Shown here: positions 633 to 64,000 of the stretch, one piece after another
How positions within the stretch are numbered: the stretch's first letter is position 1
Layout: each line of letters starts with the position of its first letter
Assembly (NCBI RefSeq): GCF_003788585.1
Contig: NZ_AYKG01000034.1
Span: 62,001-126,000 of the forward strand
Length of the DNA: 64,000 nt
Direction of reading: 5' to 3'
Origin: Salinisphaera japonica YTM-1
GTDB taxonomy: Bacteria; Pseudomonadota; Gammaproteobacteria; Nevskiales; Salinisphaeraceae
Position numbers and translations under genes: made by a program
The notes under the pieces: generated by a model
Seen by the model: the letters and a program-made list of their open reading frames with translations, nothing else
Database searches by the model: none
Told to the model about the DNA's origin: nothing

Positions 633-1294
633 GGCCAAACCGGCCCGTTGATACACCACGACCGCGACGCGCGGATACACCGGCCGCCGGTTGCAGGCGT
701 TGCCCGCGTCTGGTTGCCCTCCGGCGTGAACTAGGCGCGACGTATCCGTCATACCACGGCGCTTCGGTCACGGCCGTGGGGCCGGTCGATGCCGCGTTGC
801 TGGTCGTCGGTCTGGCCCCGGGGCTGCACGGGGCCCACCGTACGGGGCGCCCATTCAGTGGTGATGACTCGGGCGGCCTGCTCTTCGAGATGCTGCATGC
901 CTATGGCTGGGCCAATCAGCCGGTTTCGACCGGGCCGGGCGATGGGCTGGTGCTCCAGAATTGTCGTATGACCAACGCCGTGAAGTGCCTGCCGCCGGAC
1001 AACCGGCCTCTGGGGCATGAGCGCCGCGCGTGTAGTGGCTTCTTGCGCGCCGAACTGCGCGGCCCGCGGGTGATCGTCGCCCTGGGCCGCCTGGCGCATG
1101 ACGCGGTGCTTGCAGCGTTATCAATCCGCATCGCGGCCTATCCGTTCGGCCATGCCTGCGAGCATCGCCTGGATGACCGGCGGGTGCTGATCGACTCGTA
1201 CCACTGCAGCCGCTATAACCTGAACACCCGGCGTCTGACCCGTGACGGGTTCGCCGCGGTATTTGCGCAGGCCCGGCGCCGACTCGTTGCCTAG
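629..1294 (+). CDS. Family-5 (UDGb-type) 4Fe-4S uracil-DNA glycosylase
   Basis: The body carries the UDG family 4/5 signature GLAPGLHGAHRTGRPFSGD, TNAVKCLPP, ERRAC and the C-terminal DSYHCSRYNLNTRRLT typical of UDGb. The enzyme removes uracil and deaminated purines from DNA. The first usable conventional start is the GTG at 776, but the same frame is open back to 620 and encodes CRRCPRLVALRREL (codons 692-733). This is the N-terminal CxxCPRL that, with the Cys of VKC and RRAC, binds the 4Fe-4S cluster. There is no ATG, GTG or TTG between the stop at 617 and this motif. A CTG at 629 overlaps the rraA stop (CTGA) and follows GGTGAG at 615-620, so I propose it as the start, giving 221 residues. 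The stop codon TAG (1292-1294) is created by the first two bases of the repeat that follows. Confidence 0.8.
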   Translation: MRPNRPVDTPRPRRADTPAAGCRRCPRLVALRRELGATYPSYHGASVTAVGPVDAALLVVGLAPGLHGAHRTGRPFSGDDSGGLLFEMLHAYGWANQPVSTGPGDGLVLQNCRMTNAVKCLPPDNRPLGHERRACSGFLRAELRGPRVIVALGRLAHDAVLAALSIRIAAYPFGHACEHRLDDRRVLIDSYHCSRYNLNTRRLTRDGFAAVFAQARRRLVA

Positions 1295-1561
1295 GGCGCG
1301 TCGTCATAAGATAAACCGGCGCACCGGCGGCCAAGCCGCGGCAAGACAAGGCATCGCGAGTGCAGCGTGGTTATTCCACGTAAACGGACGATAACGCAGG
1401 ATTGCCGGGGCTTGCCCACCGGCCCATTCGGGTTGCTCGCGCCGGACGCGCCATGCCGCGTTGCGGGCCTTGACCGTGGCTGGCCACGCTCGGCGGCCCG
1501 CGCCTTGCCTGACACGCCCGGCGCGGGCAATGCGACGGCATATCCTATGACGACACGCCCT
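1293..1561 (-). mobile_element. Structured repeat of about 270 bp, copy R1
   Basis: This 269-bp element starts AGGGCGCGTCGTCATAAGAT and ends with the near-complement (CCTATGACGACACGCCCT). Inside lie two long complementary arms, one with a CGTGG-TTATT-CCACG hairpin, separated by CCCATTCGGG. It is closely similar to R3 (60822) in the same orientation and to R2 (27090) inverted; the minus sign means inverted relative to R2, A and B. It sits between the uracil-DNA glycosylase and uvrC. Deleting AGGG...CCCT joins T(1292) to GG(1562), a TGG codon, so the glycosylase frame would continue 18 codons to TGA at 1615. No flanking duplication is seen. An uvrC reading frame can be extended through it, but it has no coding character. 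Confidence 0.85.
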
Positions 1562-25444: not shown

Positions 25445-27091
25445 GTGAAAGCTGCCGATCTGTTCGTTAAGTGTCTGGAAGAAGAGGGCGTGGAGTATGT
25501 CTTCGGTGTGCCGGGGGAGGAGAACCTTGACCTCATCGAGTCGATGCGCACCAGCAGCATCCAGCTGGTGGTCACACGCCACGAGCAGCACGCTGCGTTT
25601 ATGGCGGCCACCTATGGCCGCCTGACGGGGCGGGCCGGCGTATGTCTGTCCACACTTGGCCCCGGGGCCACCAATTTGATGACCGGCGTTGCCTATGCCC
25701 AGCTGGGTGGCATGCCGCTATTGGCAATCACCGGCCAGAAAGCGCTGCGTGATAATCGACAGGGCAAGTTTCAGCTCATCGACATCGTCGATACGTTTCG
25801 GCCGGTGACGAAGTGGAACATGTCGTTGGCCGACAGCGGCGTCATTCCCCGCAGTATCCGCCACGCGTTCAAGACCGCGGAGGCCGAGCGGCCCGGGGCC
25901 GTCCATATCGAGTTGCCGGAGGATATCGCCGGCGAGACGATCGAGCCGAGTGTGCCACAGCGTCGGCTTACGCTGCGCCGGCCCAACGCCGATGAGCGGG
26001 CGCTGGATCGCGCGGCCGAGATGATTCGCAACGCACGCCAGCCCGTGATCGTCTACTCGGCCGGGGCCAATCGAAAACGGGTCACCACTCAGCTCTCCGC
26101 GCTGTGTGAAGCTACCGGGCTATATGCCATCGGCACCCAGATGGGCAAGGGCGTGATCGCCGACGATCACCCGCAGAGCCTATTCGCCATGGGCATCCAC
26201 AAGCACGACTATGTGCACACGGCGATCGACGAGGCCGATCTTGTGCTGACCGTGGGCTATGACGTGGTCGAGTATCCGCCGTCGGTCTGGAACGGCGAGA
26301 AGGACAAAGACATCGTGCATATCGATTTCGTGCCGGCCGATCCGGACGAATACTACAGCCCGGCGCACGAGGTCATCGGCGATATCTCCAATACGCTCAA
26401 GGCCTTGTCGCAGCGGTTGCACGATGTGCGTTTCGACGACCCGCGGATGACACGGCTCCACGACTATGTGGCGGAAAAACTCCATGTGTCGGAGTCCGAA
26501 TACAGTTTTCCGCCCAAGCCGCAACGAATCGTCGAACAGGTGCGCGGCGTGATGGGGCGCGAAGACATCATCAGCCTGGATAACGGCATCTATAAGATAT
26601 GGTTTGCCCGTATGTATCCGGCCTATGCCAACAACACGGTATTGCTGGATAACGCCCTGGCCAGCATGGGCGCCGGCCTGGCTGCGGCCATGGCCGCCAA
26701 GATGGTGCACCCACAGCAGCGCGTCATGGCCATCTGTGGCGACGGTGGTTTCATGATGAACAGCCAGGACATGGAAACCGCGGTACGGCTGGGCCTCGAT
26801 CTCGTGATTCTGCTGATCCGCGACGACGGGTATGGCTTCATTCGCTGGAAACAGGCCGGTGATGACTTCCCGGATTTCGGCATGGATTTCGGCAATCCGG
26901 ATTTCGTGGCCTATGCCGAGGCCTACGGGGCCAAGGGCTTGCGCCACACCGCGGATAACAACCTGTCCGAGGTGCTCGAACAGGCCTATCAGCTGGGCGG
27001 CGTGGTGCTGGTGGATTGCGTGATCGACTACAGCGCCAATACAGAGCTGGACGTCGAACACCATGTGCCGGCCGATGTATTGAACGGCTAG
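25445..27091 (+). CDS. Acetolactate synthase-type ThDP enzyme (AlsS-like, catabolic class)
   Basis: The 548-residue protein has the AHAS/ALS fold: pyrimidine domain with catalytic Glu in TRHEQHAAFMA, then LSTLGPGATNLMTGVAYA and ITGQK; central FAD-type domain; and C-terminal ThDP motif beginning GDGGFMMNSQDMETAVRLGL and ending in RDDGYGFIRWKQ. Full domain order and AADLFVKCLEEEGVEYVFGVPGEEN resemble catabolic AlsS more than IlvB/IlvI, and no small regulatory subunit or acetolactate decarboxylase is adjacent. The usual Asn-Asn/Asn-Asp pair of the ThDP motif is replaced by Asp-Asp, so the substrate could differ. The stop codon TAG is shared with repeat R2. Confidence 0.8.
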   Translation: MKAADLFVKCLEEEGVEYVFGVPGEENLDLIESMRTSSIQLVVTRHEQHAAFMAATYGRLTGRAGVCLSTLGPGATNLMTGVAYAQLGGMPLLAITGQKALRDNRQGKFQLIDIVDTFRPVTKWNMSLADSGVIPRSIRHAFKTAEAERPGAVHIELPEDIAGETIEPSVPQRRLTLRRPNADERALDRAAEMIRNARQPVIVYSAGANRKRVTTQLSALCEATGLYAIGTQMGKGVIADDHPQSLFAMGIHKHDYVHTAIDEADLVLTVGYDVVEYPPSVWNGEKDKDIVHIDFVPADPDEYYSPAHEVIGDISNTLKALSQRLHDVRFDDPRMTRLHDYVAEKLHVSESEYSFPPKPQRIVEQVRGVMGREDIISLDNGIYKIWFARMYPAYANNTVLLDNALASMGAGLAAAMAAKMVHPQQRVMAICGDGGFMMNSQDMETAVRLGLDLVILLIRDDGYGFIRWKQAGDDFPDFGMDFGNPDFVAYAEAYGAKGLRHTADNNLSEVLEQAYQLGGVVLVDCVIDYSANTELDVEHHVPADVLNG

Positions 27092-27373
27092 GGCGTGTCG
27101 TCATAAGATATCGCGTCGCATTGCTCGCGCCGGGCGTGTCAGGCAAGGCGCGGGCCGCCGAGCGTGGCCGGTCACGGTCAAGGTCCGTAACGCGGCATGG
27201 CGCGTTCGGCGCGAGCAACCCCGTAGGGGCCGGTGGCCAAGCCGCGGCACTACGGCGCCATAGTCGATTTTTGGGGGCTCGCTTACGTGGAATGACCACG
27301 CTGCACGCGCGATGCCTTGTCTTGCCGTGGCTTGGCCGGCGGTGCGCCGCCTTATCTTATGACGACACGCCCT
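27090..27373 (+). mobile_element. Structured repeat of about 270 bp, copy R2 (284 bp)
   Basis: Starts AGGGCGTGTCGTCATAAGAT and ends with ATCTTATGACGACACGCCCT, a perfect 20-bp inverted pair. Two internal arms: ATTGCTCGCGCCG.../...GGCGCGAGCAA and GGTGGCCAAGCC.../...GGCTTGGCCGGC; the central hairpin here is CCCCGTAGGGG, whereas R1 and R3 (in this orientation) have CCCGAATGGG, so the stem is kept while bases differ. It is about 15 bp longer than R1/R3 in the second arm. The element is inserted inside the stop codon of the preceding gene: ...GGC T^AG; the element's own AG rebuilds TAG. Confidence 0.85.
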
Positions 27374-27441: not shown

Positions 27442-27528
27442 GCCGCCGTGGTGGAATGGGTAGACACGCTAGGTTTAGGTCCTAGTGGCCGCGAGGCCGT
27501 GGGGGTTCAAGTCCCTCCGGCGGCACCA
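27442..27528 (+). tRNA. tRNA-Leu (TAG)
   Basis: Class II tRNA: acceptor GCCGCCG/CGGCGGC, anticodon stem-loop CTAGGTTTAGGTCCTAG with TAG, long variable arm (TGGCCGCGAGGCCG), T-arm GGTTCAAGTCC and encoded CCA. Confidence 0.96.
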
Positions 27529-33207: not shown

Positions 33208-35412
33208 TCAGGCGCTCATCAGATCCTCGATACGGATCGGCAGGTCACGAACCCGCTTGCCGGTGGCGTGATACACGGCGTTGGCCACTGCCGCAGCCAT
33301 GCCGGTGATACCGATTTCGCCGATGCCACGGATCCCCAGATCGTTGAACTTGTAATCCGGATAATCCAGAAGCAGCACGTTGACGTCTTCGGGGTAGTCG
33401 GCGTGCGTGGGTACCAGGTACTCGGCATAGTTGTTGTTCACCGGCATGCCCGAGCGATGGTCGTACTCGGTCTGCTCAAACAACGCCATGCCGATACCCA
33501 TGGCGATTGCGCCTTCGACCTGATTCGAGGCCGTCTTGGTGTTGACGATCTGTCCGCAGTCGATGGCGCTGACCACGCGGTTCACGCGCAGACGTGAAAT
33601 GCCCGGATCCCAGCCGATCTCGACGAAGTGCGCGCCAAAGGAGCGGAAGGAGTACTCGTCGCCGGTCGCACCCGTTGTATAAGCCTCGCCGAAGGCTTCG
33701 GCGACCTTGCGCTTCTGCAGGATCTGCACGAAATCGACCGATTGACCGCCCTTGAGCGAAAGCTTGCCGTCGGCCAGCGACAGATCGTCTGTCTTGGCAT
33801 CGGCGAACACCGCGTCTTCCTCGACCGCATAACCCTTGAGCTGGTCCGCGGCTTTCTTGGCAGCGGCGTGGATGGCCGGCAACGCCGAGGCAGAGGCCCA
33901 AGAACCACCCGATAACGGCCCGCTCGGGTAGGCGCTATCGCCCAGCTCGACGTGAATCTTGTCCAGCGGCAGGCCGAGCACGTCGGCGGCTGTCTGGGCC
34001 ACGATCGTGTAGGTGCCGGTGCCGATGTCCTGGGTGGCACAGGAAACAAAGGCCGTGCCGTCGGCGCGCAGGGCAACACGTGCGTTGCAATCGCGCTTCA
34101 AGGCTTCCCAGTTACAGGCGGCCATGCCCCAGCCGAGAATTTCGGTGCCGTTCTTCATCGACCCGATTTCAGGGGTACGCTTGTCCCAGCCGAATTCTTT
34201 CGCGCCTTTTTCGTAGCACTCCATCAGGTGGATGCTGGAAAACGGCAGGCTCTTGGAGCCGTCGGTTTCGGTGTAATTGGCCTTGCGCAGGGCCAGCGGA
34301 TCCATGCCGATCTTTTCGGCCAGCTCGTCTATGGCCGATTCCAGGGCGAACAGCCCAGGGGCCGCGCCCGGCGCGCGCATGGAGGTTGGCGTGCCCTGGT
34401 TGACCTGGGCCGTGGCGTGGGTGACCCGTACGTTGGAACAGTCGTAAAGGCTTTTGGTCACGCTGCCGCAGGTTTCAACGTAGTTGCCCACGAACGAGGT
34501 CGAGTTGACCGAGTCATGAACGATCGCCTGCAGCTTGCCGTTGGCATCGGCCCCGAGCTTGAGGTTCTGATGCGTGGCCGGGCGATGGCCGGTGGTGGTG
34601 AACATCTGCGCGCGCGGCACCACGAGCTGCACGGGCCGGCCCAGCTCGCGCGAGGCTGCCGTTGCGGCCACGGCGTGCGGCCAGATCCATAGCTTGCTGC
34701 CGAAGCCGGAGCCGATATACGGCGCCCGGGCATCAATGCGTGCCGGGTTGATACCGAACACCGCGGCGATCGTGTTCTTTGCGAAGACCACGCCCTGGCT
34801 GGCTTCATAGAACGTCAGATTGCCGTTGTTCCAATCGGCCGTCGTGGCGTGCATTTCCATCGGGTTGTGGGTTTCCACTGGGGTGGTGTAGGTCACATCC
34901 ACCTGATGGGCCGCACTGGCAAAGGCCGAGTCGGCATCGCCACGGGTATGGCGGCTGCTCTTGGCCTGCTTGGGATCGCCGTTTTTCAAGGCGGCGGTCA
35001 GGCTGGTGACCGGCTTGGATTCTTGATAGGTCACATCGACGAAATGCGCCGCGTCGCGGGCGTTTTCGAAGGTGTCGGCCACCACGAGGGCCACGAACTG
35101 GCCGCCGTAATAGACGTTGTTGTCCTCGAAGGGCAGGCGCGCCTCATCGACCTTGTTCTGCTGGGCGAAGTTCGACGGGCTGCGGTGCAGCTTCGGGAAG
35201 TTGTCGTGATGGAAAATTTCGATCACGCCGGGCTGTTTCTTGGCCTTTTCGACGTCGATCGATGCAATCTTGCCCGAGGCGATGTTCGAGAACACGCCGT
35301 AGGCATAAGTCAGATTGGCCGGATAATGGTCGGCGGCATAACGCGCACGGCCCGATAGCTTGTCCGGACCGTCGATACGCGGCTTGGCCGCGCCGATGAT
35401 GTCATTGCTCAT
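33208..35412 (-). CDS. paoC: Aldehyde oxidoreductase molybdenum-binding subunit (PaoC-like)
   Basis: The 734-residue xanthine oxidase family large subunit has the N-terminal domain (GAAKPRIDGPDKLSGRARYAAD) and molybdopterin-binding segments (YIGSGFGSKLWIWPHAVAA, MRAPGAAPGLFALESAIDELA, CATQDIGTGTYTIVAQ, LSGGSWASASALPA). The catalytic Glu lies in RGIGEIGITGMAAAVANAVY near the C terminus. Length and motifs match PaoC, the subunit oxidising aldehydes with a cytosine-dinucleotide molybdenum cofactor. Last gene of paoABC, 15 bases after paoB. Confidence 0.88.
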   Translation of the reverse strand: MSNDIIGAAKPRIDGPDKLSGRARYAADHYPANLTYAYGVFSNIASGKIASIDVEKAKKQPGVIEIFHHDNFPKLHRSPSNFAQQNKVDEARLPFEDNNVYYGGQFVALVVADTFENARDAAHFVDVTYQESKPVTSLTAALKNGDPKQAKSSRHTRGDADSAFASAAHQVDVTYTTPVETHNPMEMHATTADWNNGNLTFYEASQGVVFAKNTIAAVFGINPARIDARAPYIGSGFGSKLWIWPHAVAATAASRELGRPVQLVVPRAQMFTTTGHRPATHQNLKLGADANGKLQAIVHDSVNSTSFVGNYVETCGSVTKSLYDCSNVRVTHATAQVNQGTPTSMRAPGAAPGLFALESAIDELAEKIGMDPLALRKANYTETDGSKSLPFSSIHLMECYEKGAKEFGWDKRTPEIGSMKNGTEILGWGMAACNWEALKRDCNARVALRADGTAFVSCATQDIGTGTYTIVAQTAADVLGLPLDKIHVELGDSAYPSGPLSGGSWASASALPAIHAAAKKAADQLKGYAVEEDAVFADAKTDDLSLADGKLSLKGGQSVDFVQILQKRKVAEAFGEAYTTGATGDEYSFRSFGAHFVEIGWDPGISRLRVNRVVSAIDCGQIVNTKTASNQVEGAIAMGIGMALFEQTEYDHRSGMPVNNNYAEYLVPTHADYPEDVNVLLLDYPDYKFNDLGIRGIGEIGITGMAAAVANAVYHATGKRVRDLPIRIEDLMSA

Positions 35413-46466: not shown

Positions 46467-46502
46467 ATGTCCGCGAGAAAAATCAGCGGGCGCGATAAGA
46501 AA

Positions 46503-46740
46503 ACAGAAGACAATCCGCAGATGGGCGCAGATCACGCCGATGTGGACTTGGCGTTTCGTTGGGATCATGGCCGAGTGGACGATAAGGGGCCATCGACGCG
46601 CCATAAAATGAATACAGAGCAATGCGTGGAAGTAAAATGCTGTATTCAGCGAACGGCTGAACGCGCACTCAGCCGCTACGCGCGGCGGACCACAAATCCC
46701 ATATCTGCGTCCGTCTGCGGATAAATGCCTGTATTCATTT
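46503..46740. repeat. Tandem intergenic repeat, unit 1
   Basis: Starts ACAGAAGACAATCCGCAGAT and ends near ATCTGCGTCCGTCTGCGGAT, an inverted pair. The inner part contains TTGGGATCATGGCCGAGTGG and TTCAGCGAACGGCTGAACGC. Unit 2 starts 310 bp later and is similar throughout. No convincing gene is present between 46404 and 47100. Confidence 0.7.
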
Positions 46741-46812
46741 GCGGTTATTGGCGTCCATTCGCGGACGATGTTTATCGAACCAGGCGCCAAACCTTCTGCG
46801 CGGTAGCTCAAG

Positions 46813-47090
46813 ACAGAAGACAATCCGCAGATGGACGCAGATGACGCCGATGTGGAGTTGGCGTTTCGCTGGGATCATGGCCGAGTGGACGACACGCGGC
46901 TGTCGACGCCGCGAGGAAAATAGATGCGGGGCAATGCTTGGAAGCAGGATGCTGTATCCCGCCAATTTCAATATTCAGCGAACGGCCGATCATGCATTCA
47001 GCCGTTATGCGCGGCCGACCACCACTCCCATATCTGCGTCATCTGTGTCCATCTGCGGATAACCGTCTGTATTGATTAGCGTGAATCCGG
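46813..47090. repeat. Tandem intergenic repeat, unit 2
   Basis: Begins ACAGAAGACAATCCGCAGAT again, runs through CTGGGATCATGGCCGAGTGG and ATTCAGCGAACGGCCGATCA, and ends in ATCTGTGTCCATCTGCGGAT. By eye it is about four-fifths identical to unit 1, with a short insertion. Ends abut the amidase gene stop. Confidence 0.7.
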
Positions 47091-57410: not shown

Positions 57411-59242
57411 ATGAGCTGGCTCGATTATCTGGTCATCGTCGTCTATATCGGCGGGTTTCTATGGCTGGGCCAGCGGCTCAAGGCACATGCCTCGGGCACG
57501 CAATATTTCCTGGGCGATCGGTCGTTCGGGTGGTTTGTGCTCAGCCTCTCGGCGGCGGCAACACAGCTGTCGTCGGCCAGTTTCATCTCGGCTCCGGCGT
57601 TCGTTGGCGCGAAAGCCGCTGGCGGCCTGGTCTGGTTAACCTACGAATTCGCGGTGCCGCTGGCGATGATCTTTCTGATCGTGGCCTTCTTCCCCACGCT
57701 GTACGGCGCTGGCGTGGTCAGTATTTATGCCTTTCTTGAGCAGCGCTTCGCCCGCAGCACGCGGCTGTTGTTGTCGGCGGTGTTCCAGCTGTCGCGTGCC
57801 TTTGCCACTAGGGTCTGTTGAGGTTTCATACGAGCCCGCGTTGGCGTCCGCAAATCGTGTCCTGCAAGGCGCGAGTTGCCGCATCGTGGCGTGCCACGAT
57901 CAAGACTCGCAACGCCGTAGGTCGCGATTTGCGGCCCAACCCTTCGGGACAAGCGCTGCTTTACGGCAATACAGCGTTCTAGCCCACTGGCGCAGAACGA
58001 CTGCGCGGCGCGGGCTACGCCTCGTCTTGCCGCAAAACAGCGCTTGGCGCGGGCTCGTATGAAACCTCAACAGACCCTGGCGTGATGATGTATGCCGTGG
58101 CCCTGATTCTGACCCATGCGGTTGGTTTGTCGTTGACGGCCACGATTCTGATTATTGGTGTGGTCACGCTGGCCTATTGTTATCTCGGCGGGATGAAGGC
58201 CGTGGTCTATGGCGATGCGATCCAGATGGGACTGTTGCTGGTGGGCCTGGTCATCTGTCTCGTGGTCGGGCTCGATCGACTCGGCGGCTGGCACGCGTTT
58301 ACCGCAAACGTCGATCCGGCGCGCCTGGTGGCCGTGGATTACAGCGGCTTCGGGCTCGGCGACGATAACGGTTTCGGGTTCTGGCCGATGCTCATCGGCG
58401 GGCTTTTTCTCTATTGTGCTTACTACGGGGCGGATCAGTCGCAGGCACAGCGCCTGCTTTCGGCGCGTGACAGCACCACCGTACGGCGTACGCTGCTGGC
58501 CAACGGGCTCATACGTTTCCCGATCACGGCCTGTTACTGCTTGATGGGCCTGGTGCTGGGCACGCTGGCCCAGCAGGGCAGTGGGCCGGTCGCCGAGGCC
58601 ATCGCCGGTGAGCCGGATCTGTTGGTGCCGATGTTCATTCGCAACGGCCTGCCCGCCGGGCTGACCGGTTTATTGATCGTGGCGATCTTTTCTGCGGCCA
58701 TGTCGTCGGTGAGCTCGGCGATCAACTCGCTGTCGGCCGCGTCCGTCGAGGATTTCATCGTGGGCGGGCGTGACGTCAGCGACGGCGCCTATATGCGGGC
58801 TTCACACGCGGCCACGCTGTTCTGGGGCATCGTCTGCCTTGGCCTGGCGTTCGTCACGGGCCATCTGGCGGCAACGCTGATCGAGGCGATCAACAAGATC
58901 GGCTCGGTCTTTTTCGGGCCGCTGTTAGCAACGTTCGTCTCGGCCATTTTATGGCCGCGTATCGATGCCCGCGGGGCCAACGCCGGGCTTGTCGCCGGGG
59001 TGGCGGTCAACGTCGCGCTCTGGCTGTTTGTACCCGCGTTGTTCTGGTTCTGGTGGAACGTCACGGGCGCGCTGGCCTGCTGGGCCATTGCCGGTTTGAC
59101 CAGCCGCGCCGGCCCCCGGGCACACGCCCCGCGTACCGCGGCAACGCTGGATTGGCACTGGCCGTCGGTGACGCTACTCGCCGCTTGGTTCGTGGCGATC
59201 GTGGCCTTTGCCAGCGCGTTGCCGCTGATGCTTCGTGGCTAG
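57411..59242 (+). pseudogene. Sodium/solute symporter (SSS family) split by repeat A
   Basis: The first part (57411-57809, 133 codons) and the second (58079-59242) are halves of one SSS protein. Joined directly, they read ...LSRAFAT|GVMMYAVALIL..., as expected across this helix, and total 520 residues with about 13 helices. Other family motifs: LSLSAAATQLSSASFISAPA, YCYLGGMKAVVYGDAIQMG and FSAAMSSVSSAINSLSA. Repeat A lies exactly between codons ACT and GGC. It puts TGA three codons into the element, so the second part is translatable only from an unsupported internal GTG (58082). The substrate is not evident; an acetate, proline or other small-solute role is possible. Confidence 0.85.
57810..58078 (+). 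mobile_element. Structured repeat of about 270 bp, copy A, inside the symporter
   Basis: The 269-bp element starts AGGGTCTGTTGAGGTTTCAT and its last 31 bases are the exact complement of the first 31. Inside, arm 1 is CCGCAAATCG...CGATTTGCGG capped by ATCGTGGC-GT-GCCACGAT; then the centre CCCTTCGGG; then arm 2 CAAGCGCTGCTTTACGGCAA...TTGCCGCAAAACAGCGCTTG with inner TAGCCC/GGGCTA. Flanks are CACT and GGCG; there is no repeat of target bases. The core AGGCAAGGCGCG-type phrase and GTCTTGCCG are shared with R1-R3. Confidence 0.9.
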
Positions 59243-59647: not shown

Positions 59648-60823
59648 ATGCCCAACAATATCCTGCTGCCCCGGATCAACGAGATCGGCGCCGGATCCAT
59701 CGATCGCGTGGCGGACGTGCTGGCCGCGCTCGGTGTGTCTCGCCCGTTGATCGTGACTGACGCCATGATGGGCGAGTTGGGCTATGTCGATCGTCTGACC
59801 CAGCGTCTGCGCCAGGCGGGCATCGCATTCGGCGTGTTTGATGAAACAGTGCCCGAGCCCACCGAAATATCGATCAAGGCCGGCGTGGCGGCGATGCAGG
59901 CCGGCGCCGATGACGGCCAGCCCTACGACAGTCTGATCGCTCTGGGTGGCGGCAGCCCGATCGATTCGGCCAAGGCCATCGGCGTGCTCGGCCATTTCGG
60001 CGGCGAGATACGCGACTACAAGTTTCCCAATCAGGCCAGCGAGGTCGGCCTGCCGGTCATCGCGATTCCCACGACCGCGGGCACCGGCTCCGAGGCCACG
60101 CGGTTCACCATCATCACCGACGATGCCGTCGACGAGAAGATGCTGTGCGTGGGCATTGGCTTCATGCCGACCGCGGCCATTCTCGATTATGAGCTGACGC
60201 TAAGCGTGCCGGCCCGTGTAACCGCGGATACCGGCATCGATGCGCTCACCCACGCCATGGAGGCTTACGTCAGCAAGAAGGCCAATCCGTATTCCGACCA
60301 ACAGGCCTTGGCGGCCATGCGGCTGATCGGCCCGAACCTGCGGCGCGTGTTTCACGAACCGACAGATCGCCGTGCGCGCGAGGCGATGATGCTGGGCTCG
60401 TATCTGGCCGGGGTGGCATTTTCCAACGCCTCGGTCGCGCTCGTGCACGGCATGTCGCGCCCGATCGGCGCGGCGTTCCATGTGCCCCACGGCATGTCCA
60501 ACGCCATGCTCTTGCCCGCAGTGACCGAGTACTCTATCCCAGCCGCGCCGGCGCGTTATGCCGACTGTGCGCGCGCCATCGGTATCGCCAATCCGGCCAA
60601 TACGGATCTGGCCGCGGTCAATCTGTTAGACAAAGAGCTGCGCGCGTTGAATGCCGAACTCGGTGTGCCGTCACCGGGCGATTTTGGTATCGCCCGCGAT
60701 GCCTGGACCGCCCAGCTGGCCACGATGGCCGAACAGGCCCTGGCGTCGGGCTCACCGGGCAACAACCCCCGCGTGCCTGACGCCGAGCAGATCGTGGCTC
60801 TCTACGAAACCTGCTGGTTCTAG
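59648..60823 (+). CDS. Iron-containing alcohol dehydrogenase
   Basis: The 391-residue protein has the NAD-binding GGGSPIDSAKAIGVL, the TTAGTGSEATRFTII segment, and metal ligands in DTGIDALTHAMEAYVSKKANPYSD (Asp, His) and VHGMSRPIGAAFHVPHGMSNAMLLP (His, His). It belongs to the group III Fe-dependent dehydrogenases. A strong AGGAGGAAA precedes the ATG at 59648. The stop TAG is completed by the first two bases of repeat R3; without the repeat it would be TAA. Confidence 0.93.
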   Translation: MPNNILLPRINEIGAGSIDRVADVLAALGVSRPLIVTDAMMGELGYVDRLTQRLRQAGIAFGVFDETVPEPTEISIKAGVAAMQAGADDGQPYDSLIALGGGSPIDSAKAIGVLGHFGGEIRDYKFPNQASEVGLPVIAIPTTAGTGSEATRFTIITDDAVDEKMLCVGIGFMPTAAILDYELTLSVPARVTADTGIDALTHAMEAYVSKKANPYSDQQALAAMRLIGPNLRRVFHEPTDRRAREAMMLGSYLAGVAFSNASVALVHGMSRPIGAAFHVPHGMSNAMLLPAVTEYSIPAAPARYADCARAIGIANPANTDLAAVNLLDKELRALNAELGVPSPGDFGIARDAWTAQLATMAEQALASGSPGNNPRVPDAEQIVALYETCWF

Positions 60824-61090
60824 GGCGTGTTGTCATAAGATAAGGCGGCGCACCGGCGGCCAAGCCGCGGCAAGACAAGGCATCGCGCGTGCAGCGTGGT
60901 TATTCCACGTAAACGAGCGATAACGCAGGATTGCCGGGGCTTGGCCACCGGCCCATTCGGGTTGCTCGCGCCGGACGCGCCATGCGGCGTTACGGACCTT
61001 GACCGTGGCGGGCCACGCTCGGCGGCCCCCGCCTTGCCTGACACGCCCGGCGCGAGCAATGCGACGTCATATCTCATGACGACACGCCCT
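60822..61090 (-). mobile_element. Structured repeat of about 270 bp, copy R3, between convergent stop codons
   Basis: The 269-bp element starts AGGGCGTGTTGTCATAAGAT and ends ATCTCATGACGACACGCCCT. It is very similar to R1, with the same arms (CCGGCGGCCAAGCC...GGCTTGGCCACCGG; TTGCTCGCGCCGG...CCGGCGCGAGCAA) and central CCCATTCGGG. Flanks TTCT and AATA join to TTC TAA TAA on the plus strand and, read in reverse, to TAT TAG. The insertion therefore lies inside the stop codons of both the alcohol dehydrogenase and the glycerophosphodiesterase, and the AG at each element end gives each gene a TAG. Orientation as R1. Confidence 0.9.
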
Positions 61091-62273
61091 AATAACCCAA
61101 CTGTTCGAGACGGGCGTCCACGGCCGTTGGTGTGGGCGCGCCGGTAAAGTCCAGCAGCGCGGTGGGGTCGTTGGTGAAGATGCCATCGACTCCGCGGTTG
61201 AGATAGCGCCGGAAATCGACTGCGTCATCCAGCGTATAGACATGCACGAGCAGGCCACGCCGATGTGCACGCTCGATCATCGAATCGTCGGCCAGATCGG
61301 CATAGCTATAGACCGGATCGAGATCGTCGCGGGCCGCCGATGGCCCGACGCCGATCGCCCCCTGGTCGCGAGCAAAATCGAGAAACGTATTGTAGGCCTC
61401 GGGTGAGGCGGGCCGGCGGCGTGCCTGAAAAGCCGCATCGCTTTCGTCTTCGCGCTGCTGGATCGTCGGGTCAGCCGTGATCGAGCCATCACCGCCCAGA
61501 AACAACAGCAGAATCTTCGGCGTATCGGGCATTTCGGCGTGCAGCTGCACGAGGCTGTCTTTCGAGAAGGTCTGCAGAATCACGCGGCCCGGGGAATACC
61601 CGACGTCGATGTCACCGTCGAAACCGGTCGGTGCCTGGCGTGCCTGCTTGCCAATCCAGTCGTGTTCACGCAGATAAGCGGCCAGCTCGGCTTCAATACC
61701 CGCAAACAGGGCCGGCGATTTGGTCTCCAGATACAGGCCGGGCTGGTTGTCGCCGGCTTCGGCGATCTGGCGCAGCTCGTCGAGCGTCAGGATCTTCAAG
61801 CCAGCATAGCTATCGCGGGCACGCTCGGGAAACGCCTCGTTGAACCAGCTGCCGGCGTCCAGACGTTTCAATTCGGCCAGCGTGAAGGTATTGACCGGAT
61901 CATCAGCACGATCCGGAAACACGGCTTCGATATTGGTCGTGCGGCGCAGGTTGGTGTCGTGGAGCGCGATGAGCGTGCCGTCGCGAGTGCGCTGCAGATC
62001 GGCCTCGAGATAATCCGCGCCCTGGTCGCGTGCCAGCAGATAAGCCGGGCGGGTCTCCTCGGGCGCATGCAGAGAGGCGCCACGATGGGCGATCACCGCC
62101 GGATAAGGAATCATGTAGCGATCAGCCAGTTGCTCACCGATCGAGGCCGGGCTGTTATCGCCTTCAGTATGCGTATTCACTTGAACATTGCTCGAGTCGG
62201 AACAGGCCGCAGCAACGAGACACAGGCCGGCTGCCAGCGCAAAACGCGGCCAGGCGGTTATTGGATACGACAT
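61089..62273 (-). CDS. glpQ: Glycerophosphodiester phosphodiesterase, lipoprotein (GlpQ-like)
   Basis: The 394-residue precursor has a signal with lipobox VAAAC (Cys about 24). The GDPD TIM-barrel domain starts VIAHRGASLHAPEETRPAYLLARDQGADYLEADLQRTRDGTLIALHD, with the catalytic His-Arg, Glu-Asp and His, and runs on to LVHVYTLDDAVDFRRYLNRGVDGIFTNDP. It releases glycerol-3-phosphate from deacylated phospholipids in the periplasm. Its TAG stop is completed by repeat R3. Confidence 0.92.
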   Translation of the reverse strand: MSYPITAWPRFALAAGLCLVAAACSDSSNVQVNTHTEGDNSPASIGEQLADRYMIPYPAVIAHRGASLHAPEETRPAYLLARDQGADYLEADLQRTRDGTLIALHDTNLRRTTNIEAVFPDRADDPVNTFTLAELKRLDAGSWFNEAFPERARDSYAGLKILTLDELRQIAEAGDNQPGLYLETKSPALFAGIEAELAAYLREHDWIGKQARQAPTGFDGDIDVGYSPGRVILQTFSKDSLVQLHAEMPDTPKILLLFLGGDGSITADPTIQQREDESDAAFQARRRPASPEAYNTFLDFARDQGAIGVGPSAARDDLDPVYSYADLADDSMIERAHRRGLLVHVYTLDDAVDFRRYLNRGVDGIFTNDPTALLDFTGAPTPTAVDARLEQLGY

Positions 62274-62335: not shown

Positions 62336-62810
62336 CTATTTGAGCTCGCTGTCGAGTTTCAGGACACGATCGCCGTCATCCTGCTCGATGAGATAGGCCG
62401 GGTTGTCATCATCGCCGTGGCGCGTGATTTCGCTGCCTTGCAGGGTTTTAGTCACGCTTTCGGTATAGATCTGTACGATCTTGCCGCTGCCTTCACCGCC
62501 GCCATAGGGCCTGTTGCCGTTTCGTACGAGCGCCGCGTTGGCGCCCAAAATCTGGCCAGGCAAGGCGCGAGCCGCCGGTCGTGGCGTGCCACGATCAAGG
62601 TGAGCAACGCTGCATGGCCAGATTTTGGGCCCAACCCTTCGGGACAAGCGCTGTTTTACGGCAATACAGCGTTCTAGCACGCTAGCGTAGAACGACTGCG
62701 CGGCGCGTGCTACGCCTCGTCTTGCCGTAAAACAGCGCTTGGCGCGGACTCGTACGAAACGGCAACAGGCCCTGGTTCCAGCGAGCGGTTTCACCCACCT
62801 GTCGTGCCAT
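62336..62810 (-). pseudogene. DUF2945 (Tudor-like) protein gene split by repeat B
   Basis: From the ATG at 62810 (GGAG upstream) the frame reads MARQVGETARWN and then enters repeat B. After the repeat the rest reads GGGEGSGKIVQIYTESV...KTLQGSEITRHGDDDNPAYLIEQDDGDRVLKL. Removing exactly 62506-62773 joins AAC C^AT GGC and gives a 68-residue DUF2945 protein (RWNHGGGEGSGK), the normal length. This family is known as hypervirulence-associated Tudor-like proteins, with unknown function. With the repeat in place the two halves are in different frames. Last gene of a group with the DUF4168 and DUF3015 genes. Confidence 0.85.
62506..62773 (+). mobile_element. Structured repeat of about 270 bp, copy B, inside the DUF2945 gene
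   Basis: The 268-bp element starts AGGGCCTGTTGCCGTTTCGT and ends with ACGAAACGGCAACAGGCCCT. Arm 1 is GCCCAAAATCTGGCCA...TGGCCAGATTTTGGGC around TCGTGGC-GT-GCCACGA; the centre is CCCTTCGGG; arm 2 is CAAGCGCTGTTTTACGGCAA, exactly matched by its complement, around TAGCACGC/GCGTGCTA. It has the layout and orientation of copy A but different stem bases. Flanks CCAT and GGTT; no target duplication. Confidence 0.9.
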
Positions 62811-63730: not shown

Positions 63731-64000
63731 TCAGGCCGTTTCGTCCATGATCTTGTCCAGCGTGATCGGCAGATCACGAATACGTTTGCCGGTCGCATGG
63801 TAGACGGCGTTGGCCACGGCAGCCTGAACACCGGTCAGCCCGATTTCGCCGATCCCGCGGGCCCCCAGCTCGTTCAAGTGATAATCCGGGTGGTTCAACA
63901 GGATCACGTCCAGCTCGGGCATGTCGGCGTTGACCGGCACCAGATACTCGGCGTAGTTGTTGTTGACCGGACGCCCCGTGCGCTCGTCGTACTCGGTGGC
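63731..64000 (-). CDS. C-terminal part of a second aldehyde oxidoreductase molybdenum subunit (partial)
   Basis: The 89 residues visible begin TEYDERTGRPVNNNYAEYLVP and include LNELGARGIGEIGLTGVQAAVANAVYHATGKRIRDLPI, i.e. the catalytic-Glu region GEIG of the xanthine oxidase family. They parallel the same part of the PaoC-like protein at 33208 residue by residue with several changes. The 5' part lies beyond the window edge, so a second PaoABC-type locus is likely there. Confidence 0.88.
   Translation of the reverse strand, partial: ATEYDERTGRPVNNNYAEYLVPVNADMPELDVILLNHPDYHLNELGARGIGEIGLTGVQAAVANAVYHATGKRIRDLPITLDKIMDETA

Follow-up and report, generated by a model that had tools for sequence, protein, structure and literature searches.

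RUP of Streptococcus pneumoniae is a non-coding repeat with inverted ends, a TA target and a high copy number, and IS630-Spn1 has been suggested to mobilise it in trans (PMC2229807). The same characters are found in an element that interrupts a sodium:solute symporter gene of Salinisphaera japonica YTM-1. As described in that source, RUP measures 107 bp and has ends that reportedly resemble those of its IS, whereas the Salinisphaera element measures 267 bp and a matching IS was not found in the genus. Unlike RUP, it contains two inverted structured arms and has class-wide relatives. The Correia or NEMIS repeats of Neisseria share inverted ends of about 24 bp, TA termini, a stable stem-loop and gene fusions with the element (PMC2229807). 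Their length is given as about 107-155 bp, while the Salinisphaera element forms a long stem that branches into two arms and a mini-hairpin. ERIC/IRU/RU-1 sequences are likewise TA-flanked dispersed repeats with a stem, and are described as being transcribed with neighbouring genes (PMC2229807). ERIC is 127 bp long (PMC2759123), and its comparison with the element is one of description. Two long inverted-repeat arms with a linker are shared with CIR of Caulobacter and Brucella (PMC2229807). In that account, CIR is without terminal inverted repeats, whereas the arms of the Salinisphaera element are enclosed by them and are inverted copies of each other. ISY100 and other IS630 elements share the TA duplication, and the IS630 copy of S. 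japonica also lies in CTAG. These are autonomous and carry a transposase gene, which the element lacks. In vitro, the IS630-type ISY100 yielded a normal TA duplication in 34 of 39 insertions, and a title in the reference list of the same paper states that an IS630 transposon prefers TA within CTAG (PMC2170065).

Interruption of the symporter gene

Coordinates (Table 1) refer to the window, the 64,000-nt stretch of contig NZ_AYKG01000034.1 that was analysed. Joining the flanks without the insert restores an open frame of 520 codons for a sodium:solute symporter. The insert occupies 57810-58078, 269 bp placed after codon 133, and a stop inside it ends the 5′ frame at 57819-57821. On each of the two gene fragments, the superfamily model TIGR00813 scores under its cut-off. 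The original prediction of a precise interruption by a repeat was right in coordinates, length, codon position and restored frame, and also in the perfect stem, as the arms match each other over 31 bases at 100%. Its treatment of the insert as a 269-bp unit holds for the length, but the element itself, which is non-coding, spans 267 bp, and the other 2 bp are one copy of a duplication. A 111-codon ORF overlapping the left part of the element gave no Pfam match. The 30-base end pattern, allowing up to three mismatches, occurs in the window only at both ends of the symporter insert.

Table 1. Features of the interrupted gene, the insert and further element copies in the window.
Feature	Position	Strand	Evidence or remark
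Family B copy, architecture as in family A, different ends	1294..1560	-	immediately follows the TAG stop of a 172-codon ORF
Family B copy, 282 bp	27091..27372	+	immediately follows the TAG stop of a 548-codon ORF
Symporter, 5′ part, codons 1-133	57411..57809	+	Pfam SSF PF00474, E 8.6e-12 on 57411-57821; tblastn against 80 fetched loci
Left copy of target-site duplication, TA	57809..57810	.	48 of 63 elements are TA/TA
Left arm, perfect 31-bp inverted repeat, includes A of the left TA	57810..57840	+	self match 100%; pattern matches
Structured element, probable MITE, family A copy, 267 bp	57811..58077	+	
Arm module P2 with central mini-hairpin	57836..57948	+	model R1, 111.8 bits, E 3e-22; among the 27 training rows
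Arm module P3, inverted diverged copy of P2	57940..58052	-	R1 on the opposite strand, 49.0 bits, E 2.6e-8; not in training
Right arm, perfect 31-bp inverted repeat	58048..58078	-	self match; pattern matches
Right copy of target-site duplication, now TG	58078..58079	.	
Symporter, 3′ part, codons 134-520 and stop	58079..59242	+	Pfam SSF, E 9.9e-26, and TIGR00813, E 3.1e-44, on 58082-59239
Family B copy	60823..61089	-	exactly between the converging TAG stops of Fe-ADH (398 codons) and GDPD (394 codons) genes
Second family A copy, 266 bp, TA left and TG right	62507..62772	+	interrupts a small minus-strand Hva1_TUDOR-domain gene

The architecture of family A consists of terminal inverted repeats around an inverted pair of structured arms and a mini-hairpin. 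R1, a covariance model of one arm, was built from 27 elements of families A and B and of three other genera. It matches all five elements of the window twice, once per strand, from which it follows that the element consists of two copies of one module in inverted orientation. The P2 arms of three of the five had been used in training; their second arms (24.3 to 59.9 bits) and the other two elements had not. Folded as RNA, the insert reached -179.1 kcal/mol against a mean of -105.4 in 200 shuffles (z -14.6).

The insert is read, with a probability of about 0.88, as a non-autonomous MITE of the IS630/Tc1-mariner type in a CTAG-type site of the symporter gene. An IS630-type transposase would mobilise such an element in trans by cut-and-paste. 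It would have integrated at the CTAG-type site over codons 133-134, duplicating TA. That the interruption is an ordinary MITE insertion is well supported. Since the 269 nt shift the frame and bring in a stop after a few codons, the symporter gene has very probably lost its function.

A different account assumes that the insert is removed at the RNA level, by self-splicing or otherwise, or skipped in translation, so that the symporter is still made. The long stem, which brings both flanks together, and the otherwise open symporter frame would suit it. However, translational bypass needs matching take-off and landing codons, and here the take-off codon is ACT while CCT stands before the landing point. 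The 269 nt also change the frame, and bypassing had correctly been called unlikely. No intron or ribozyme family reached the Rfam gathering score in the window, where only five tRNAs did so. Below this score, the matches were weak (E 0.058 or worse) and concerned eukaryotic microRNA and other families. Moreover, the insert is a TA-flanked mobile repeat present at many other places, and its stem would more likely be a substrate of RNase III, as proposed for NEMIS (PMC2229807). Removal at the RNA level, raised as conceivable in the original prediction, thus found no support, and continued production of the symporter in this way is extremely improbable. Loss of the MITE by slippage is possible in principle, with hardly any direct repeat available because the flanks now read TA and TG.

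The symporter gene was found at E 1e-60 or better in three of the 14 Salinisphaera genomes, that of S. japonica included. The nearest matches by identity are Salinisphaera records (75 and 82%). Relatives whose alignment or DNA spans the junction have no element there. Compared with Salinisphaera sp. UBA1666, dN/dS was 0.05 for the 5′ part and 0.14 for the 3′ part, for which UBA1666 provides 300 codons. The corresponding values against Salinisphaera sp. Q1T1-3 were 0.07 and 0.22. UBA1666 and Q1T1-3 compared with each other gave 0.16 and 0.18, similar to the values against the interrupted gene; with dS between 0.87 and 1.78, all these ratios are rough. They show no relaxed selection at the scale of species divergence, which fits a recent insertion and gives no date. 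The earlier suggestion of a recent event is therefore kept as plausible on account of the open frame and the low dN/dS, although the duplicated TA has probably already mutated once.

That mutation concerns the native junction, which had been proposed as AFAT/GVMMY. Salinisphaera sp. Q1T1-3 and four Kushneria carry the junction codons ACC AGY (Thr-Ser), and a CTAG target in the symporter gene of the window would read ACT AGC. In view of these codons and the CTAG type of the site, and because TG/TG flanks have never been seen among the elements, codon 134 was probably AGC (Ser) and the junction AFAT/SVMMY. The right TA would later have become TG by an A-to-G change. Counting against a native Ser, the nearest relative UBA1666 (a MAG, G010) has ACG GGC (Thr-Gly), which makes the proposed Gly junction the less probable alternative. 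About ten bases past the site of the element, the UBA1666 symporter (L038:3950-3970) is without one base, representing a frameshift or a MAG/assembly error.

Ends, target and candidate transposase

Sixty-three distinct elements with both ends were collected, 43 from the S. japonica genome and 20 from other Salinisphaera. TA occurs on both sides in 48, on one side only in 13 and on neither side in two; TG on both sides occurs in none of the 63. In one of the one-sided cases (L171), an extra G displaces the left TA by one base. The 15 elements without TA/TA count against the reading as a MITE. With strands folded, the targets of the 48 TA/TA elements are CTAG (29), CTAA (10), TTAA (4), CTAC (3), GTAC (1) and ATAG (1), whereas 2% of the NTAN tetramers of the window are CTAG. 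The ends of family A are mostly GGGNCTGTTG. At non-CTAG targets, the left G and the right C of the element are unchanged, showing that the duplication is TA and that the element runs GGG...CCC.

Elements of the IS5 family produce a 4-bp duplication. An IS5-type element with a duplicated CTAG could be proposed, as CTAG is readable at both ends of many copies. At non-CTAG targets, however, the outer bases are unequal while G and C stay constant (L002, L003, L007, L027), so that only TA is duplicated, and an IS5-type origin is very improbable.

It is likewise unlikely, though less so, that the element owns A...T ends and inserts without any duplication, with CT/GG as target in the symporter gene. 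Both family A copies in the window are flanked by TA and TG, and the GGC (Gly) codon at the symporter junction of G010 would fit a non-TA target. Among one-sided departures of the flanks, the outer base was changed in nine cases and the inner in three. This difference is not significant (two-sided binomial about 0.15), and the three copies lost the inner base instead. For TA targets, insertion without duplication predicts the same flanks, hence most copies cannot discriminate. The biochemistry reported for ISY100 derives the TA from the target (PMC2170065).

Two explanations for features of the flanks were rejected. Vsr repair was considered as the cause of the frequent changes from TA to TG or CA; Vsr was not found in the S. 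japonica genome and was found in two of the 14 genomes. A preference of family A for stop codons showed no clear enrichment, as an ORF of at least 100 codons ends at 17 of 60 TAG-adjacent family A sides versus seven of 38 other CTAG strand-sites in the window.

A single DDE_3 match was obtained in the S. japonica genome, an IS630-family transposase (NF033545, E 9.8e-85). The 1.14-kb IS has the ends GTGTCCTGTAAC, which are unlike those of family A, and the target CTAG with TA on both sides. This copy (L035:60-1202) is inserted in a CTAG adjoining a family A element at the start of contig C9. DDE_3 was found in five of the 14 Salinisphaera genomes, versus the element in all 14, and R1 gave no match in 14 loci around DDE_3 genes. 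In the genome G008, for which 100 of 103 end matches were listed, 34 of 37 nearest inward pairs have a spacing of 84-309 bp; the remaining pairs are separated by 3505, 13770 and 62547 bp. The 3505-bp stretch, the sole pair at IS distance, contains genes for a peptidase M13 and a VTT-domain protein and no transposase. Among 100 of the 154 end matches in the S. japonica genome, read by eye, no pair stands at IS distance. Across the genus, the searches turned up no IS whose ends match those of family A. The clearest link from the core to IS630 ends is an element of G020 (L243), from another family of the order, whose ends GTGTCCCTTAACAGAAGTTCGT agree by eye with those of the S. japonica IS630 at 19 of 22 positions. 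The label "IS630-type" thus rests on the target and the duplication of the element, and its parent IS is putative.

Copies in the genome and the genus

The S. japonica genome assembly comprises 3.26 Mb in 69 contigs. With 40 of 109 candidates scored, a search of it yielded at least 40 separate element places with E-values of 3e-62 or better; shorter and inverted matches of secondary rank came in addition. The end pattern matched 85 plus 69 times (154 in total), and a reversed control pattern 0 times. Many of the 100 listed pattern matches lie within 200 bases of a contig end, and contig ends are often located inside or beside elements of family A or B. The assembly evidently breaks at such copies, and copy numbers are minima. 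A slightly looser end pattern matched the one-contig genome G008 55 plus 48 times. Element matches were obtained in all 14 Salinisphaera genomes searched (S. japonica plus 13) and, in the same search, in 20 of 41 genomes including S. japonica. A plasmid search gave no match.

The second family A copy of the window lies in a Hva1_TUDOR-domain gene, homologues of which are without the element in G010 and G011. For further copies in the S. japonica genome, 16 sites with a spanning ORF were considered, and 20 of 30 listed pieces were scanned with Pfam, covering both sides at seven sites and one side at seven more. No family was found on both sides of any site. At L022:1786-2121, a family A copy closes a 112-codon P-II (GlnB-like) gene, with the TAG stop regenerated. 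At L025:1770-1985, a ParE-like domain begins at profile position 26 right after a family A element, and the parE-like gene may be truncated.

Family B has the ends GGGCGTGTCGTCATAAGATA, which are unlike those of family A, and an arm homologous to that of A. In 19 distinct S. japonica elements with both ends (21 loci), the flanks were TA/TA in seven, TA/TG in five, TA/CA in three and others in four. Each of the three family B copies in the window borders on the TAG stop with which a long ORF ends. These stops are regenerated on insertion because the element starts with G after TA (60821-61091). A tRNA gene (27442-27525) is located about 70 bp from one family B element.

Conservation of the fold and class-wide relatives

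The alignment within the genus comprised the 41 of the 63 elements that are 262-270 bp long and left out 22 of other lengths. The consensus has 96 pairs, 23 of them with changes on both sides. None of 500 shuffles reached the observed value on any of five measures, and slid versions gave four to seven two-sided pairs; the structure was derived from the same alignment on which it was tested, which favours it. Parsimony yielded 60 double events, 28 of them on terminal branches. A first strand count gave 65 G.U versus 24 A.C events. On pairs common to the folds of both strands, it fell to 34 versus 21, which is not significant. The consensus energy was better for the forward strand (-141 versus -120), while single-copy energies favoured this strand in 33 of 63 elements, hardly any difference. 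Selection for an RNA from one strand was rejected, as the initial excess of G.U shrank in this way and came to 144 versus 117 cells class-wide.

At a threshold of E 1e-4, R1 had matches in 79 of 369 gammaproteobacterial genomes, representing 63 of 272 genera; 55 of the 79 reached E 1e-8 or better. Ten candidates were scored per genome under stricter filters, and the E-values are rough. Two of the 79 (G000 and G003) are Salinisphaera and were in the training set. The best-scoring loci, one per genome, were examined for 30 genomes. Inverted ends agreeing in at least 16 of 18 positions were present at the expected place in 28 of the 30, whereas the best of 83 control grids placed in these loci scored 15 of 18 (0 of 83 as good). 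The two exceptions were L223 (11/18) and L235 (14/18). TA/TA flanks were read in 15 of the 29 loci with an end match of at least 14/18; the choice of ends gives TA a bonus and does not always take the outermost end. The ends vary across the class, with GGGCCTGTTAACACT in several loci and GTGTACTGTTTCAC, GGGAATCTCTGCACG, AGAGCCTATCCGTG and GTACTCCGTCCAGG in others.

An alignment across the class contained 31 elements, namely 25 from the 30 loci, two from the window and four from the family and order. L214 and L215 (Salinisphaera) as well as L223, L227 and L242 (length) were left out. Under strong weighting of covariation, the consensus has 108 pairs, with 86.2% of cells pairing and two-sided changes in 93 of the 108; this structure also derives from the alignment itself, and standard parameters gave a sparser one. 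The covariation score was 0.596, compared with 0.175 in shuffled and 0.10-0.16 in slid alignments. The motifs CAAGGCGC and CAAC.C are nearly constant. The near equality of G.U and A.C cells, without a clear strand preference, speaks for a structure at the DNA level, or for correction of palindromes, rather than for an RNA read from one strand, and the fold is presumably maintained at the DNA level.

Palindrome correction could by itself leave a fold without function. Shared descent, together with palindromes whose halves stay complementary through template switching or through conversion between the arms, would then produce the observed pairing. The nearly equal class-wide cells, the loss of significance of the strand bias on shared pairs, as expected of a DNA-level process, and the joint change of both arms of the end repeat within one genus are in line with such a process. 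Repair of pairing alone does not explain why the two motifs, situated outside the end repeats, are almost constant across the class, and a functionless fold is doubtful, with odds nearer to one in three than to even. A more far-reaching interpretation, at somewhat less than even odds, is an undescribed non-coding mobile family of class-wide distribution, whose core of inverted folded arms would have spread with different IS630-type ends. Its fold, probably a DNA hairpin or cruciform, would serve the element, e.g. by recruiting transposase or host factors, and would be more than the debris of a deleted IS.

Rfam gave no match at gathering score on the elements in 20 loci. Off the elements, two tRNA and two TwoAYGGAY matches were recorded in the same loci (L226 and L237). 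The titles and abstract beginnings searched contained no description of the element family or of Salinisphaera MITEs, in a coverage outside which most subscription papers fall. A broken symporter gene is by itself ordinary, and the element is of more interest than the gene. Should the family prove as wide as the model implies, Gammaproteobacteria carry a common repeat, so far unnamed, by which genes are interrupted and assemblies broken, and in which a complex fold has been kept while the ends diverged. Such a family offers a direct way to test whether structure, not sequence, allows an element without genes to persist, and which transposases serve it.

Other repeats were observed in the window. 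At 46500-47040 lie two direct repeats, one of 100 nt (90%) and one of 69 nt (86%), at a spacing of about 310-330 bp. A stretch of 146 nt is repeated at 75% at 33235-33380 and 63764-63909, possibly as paralogous coding sequence.
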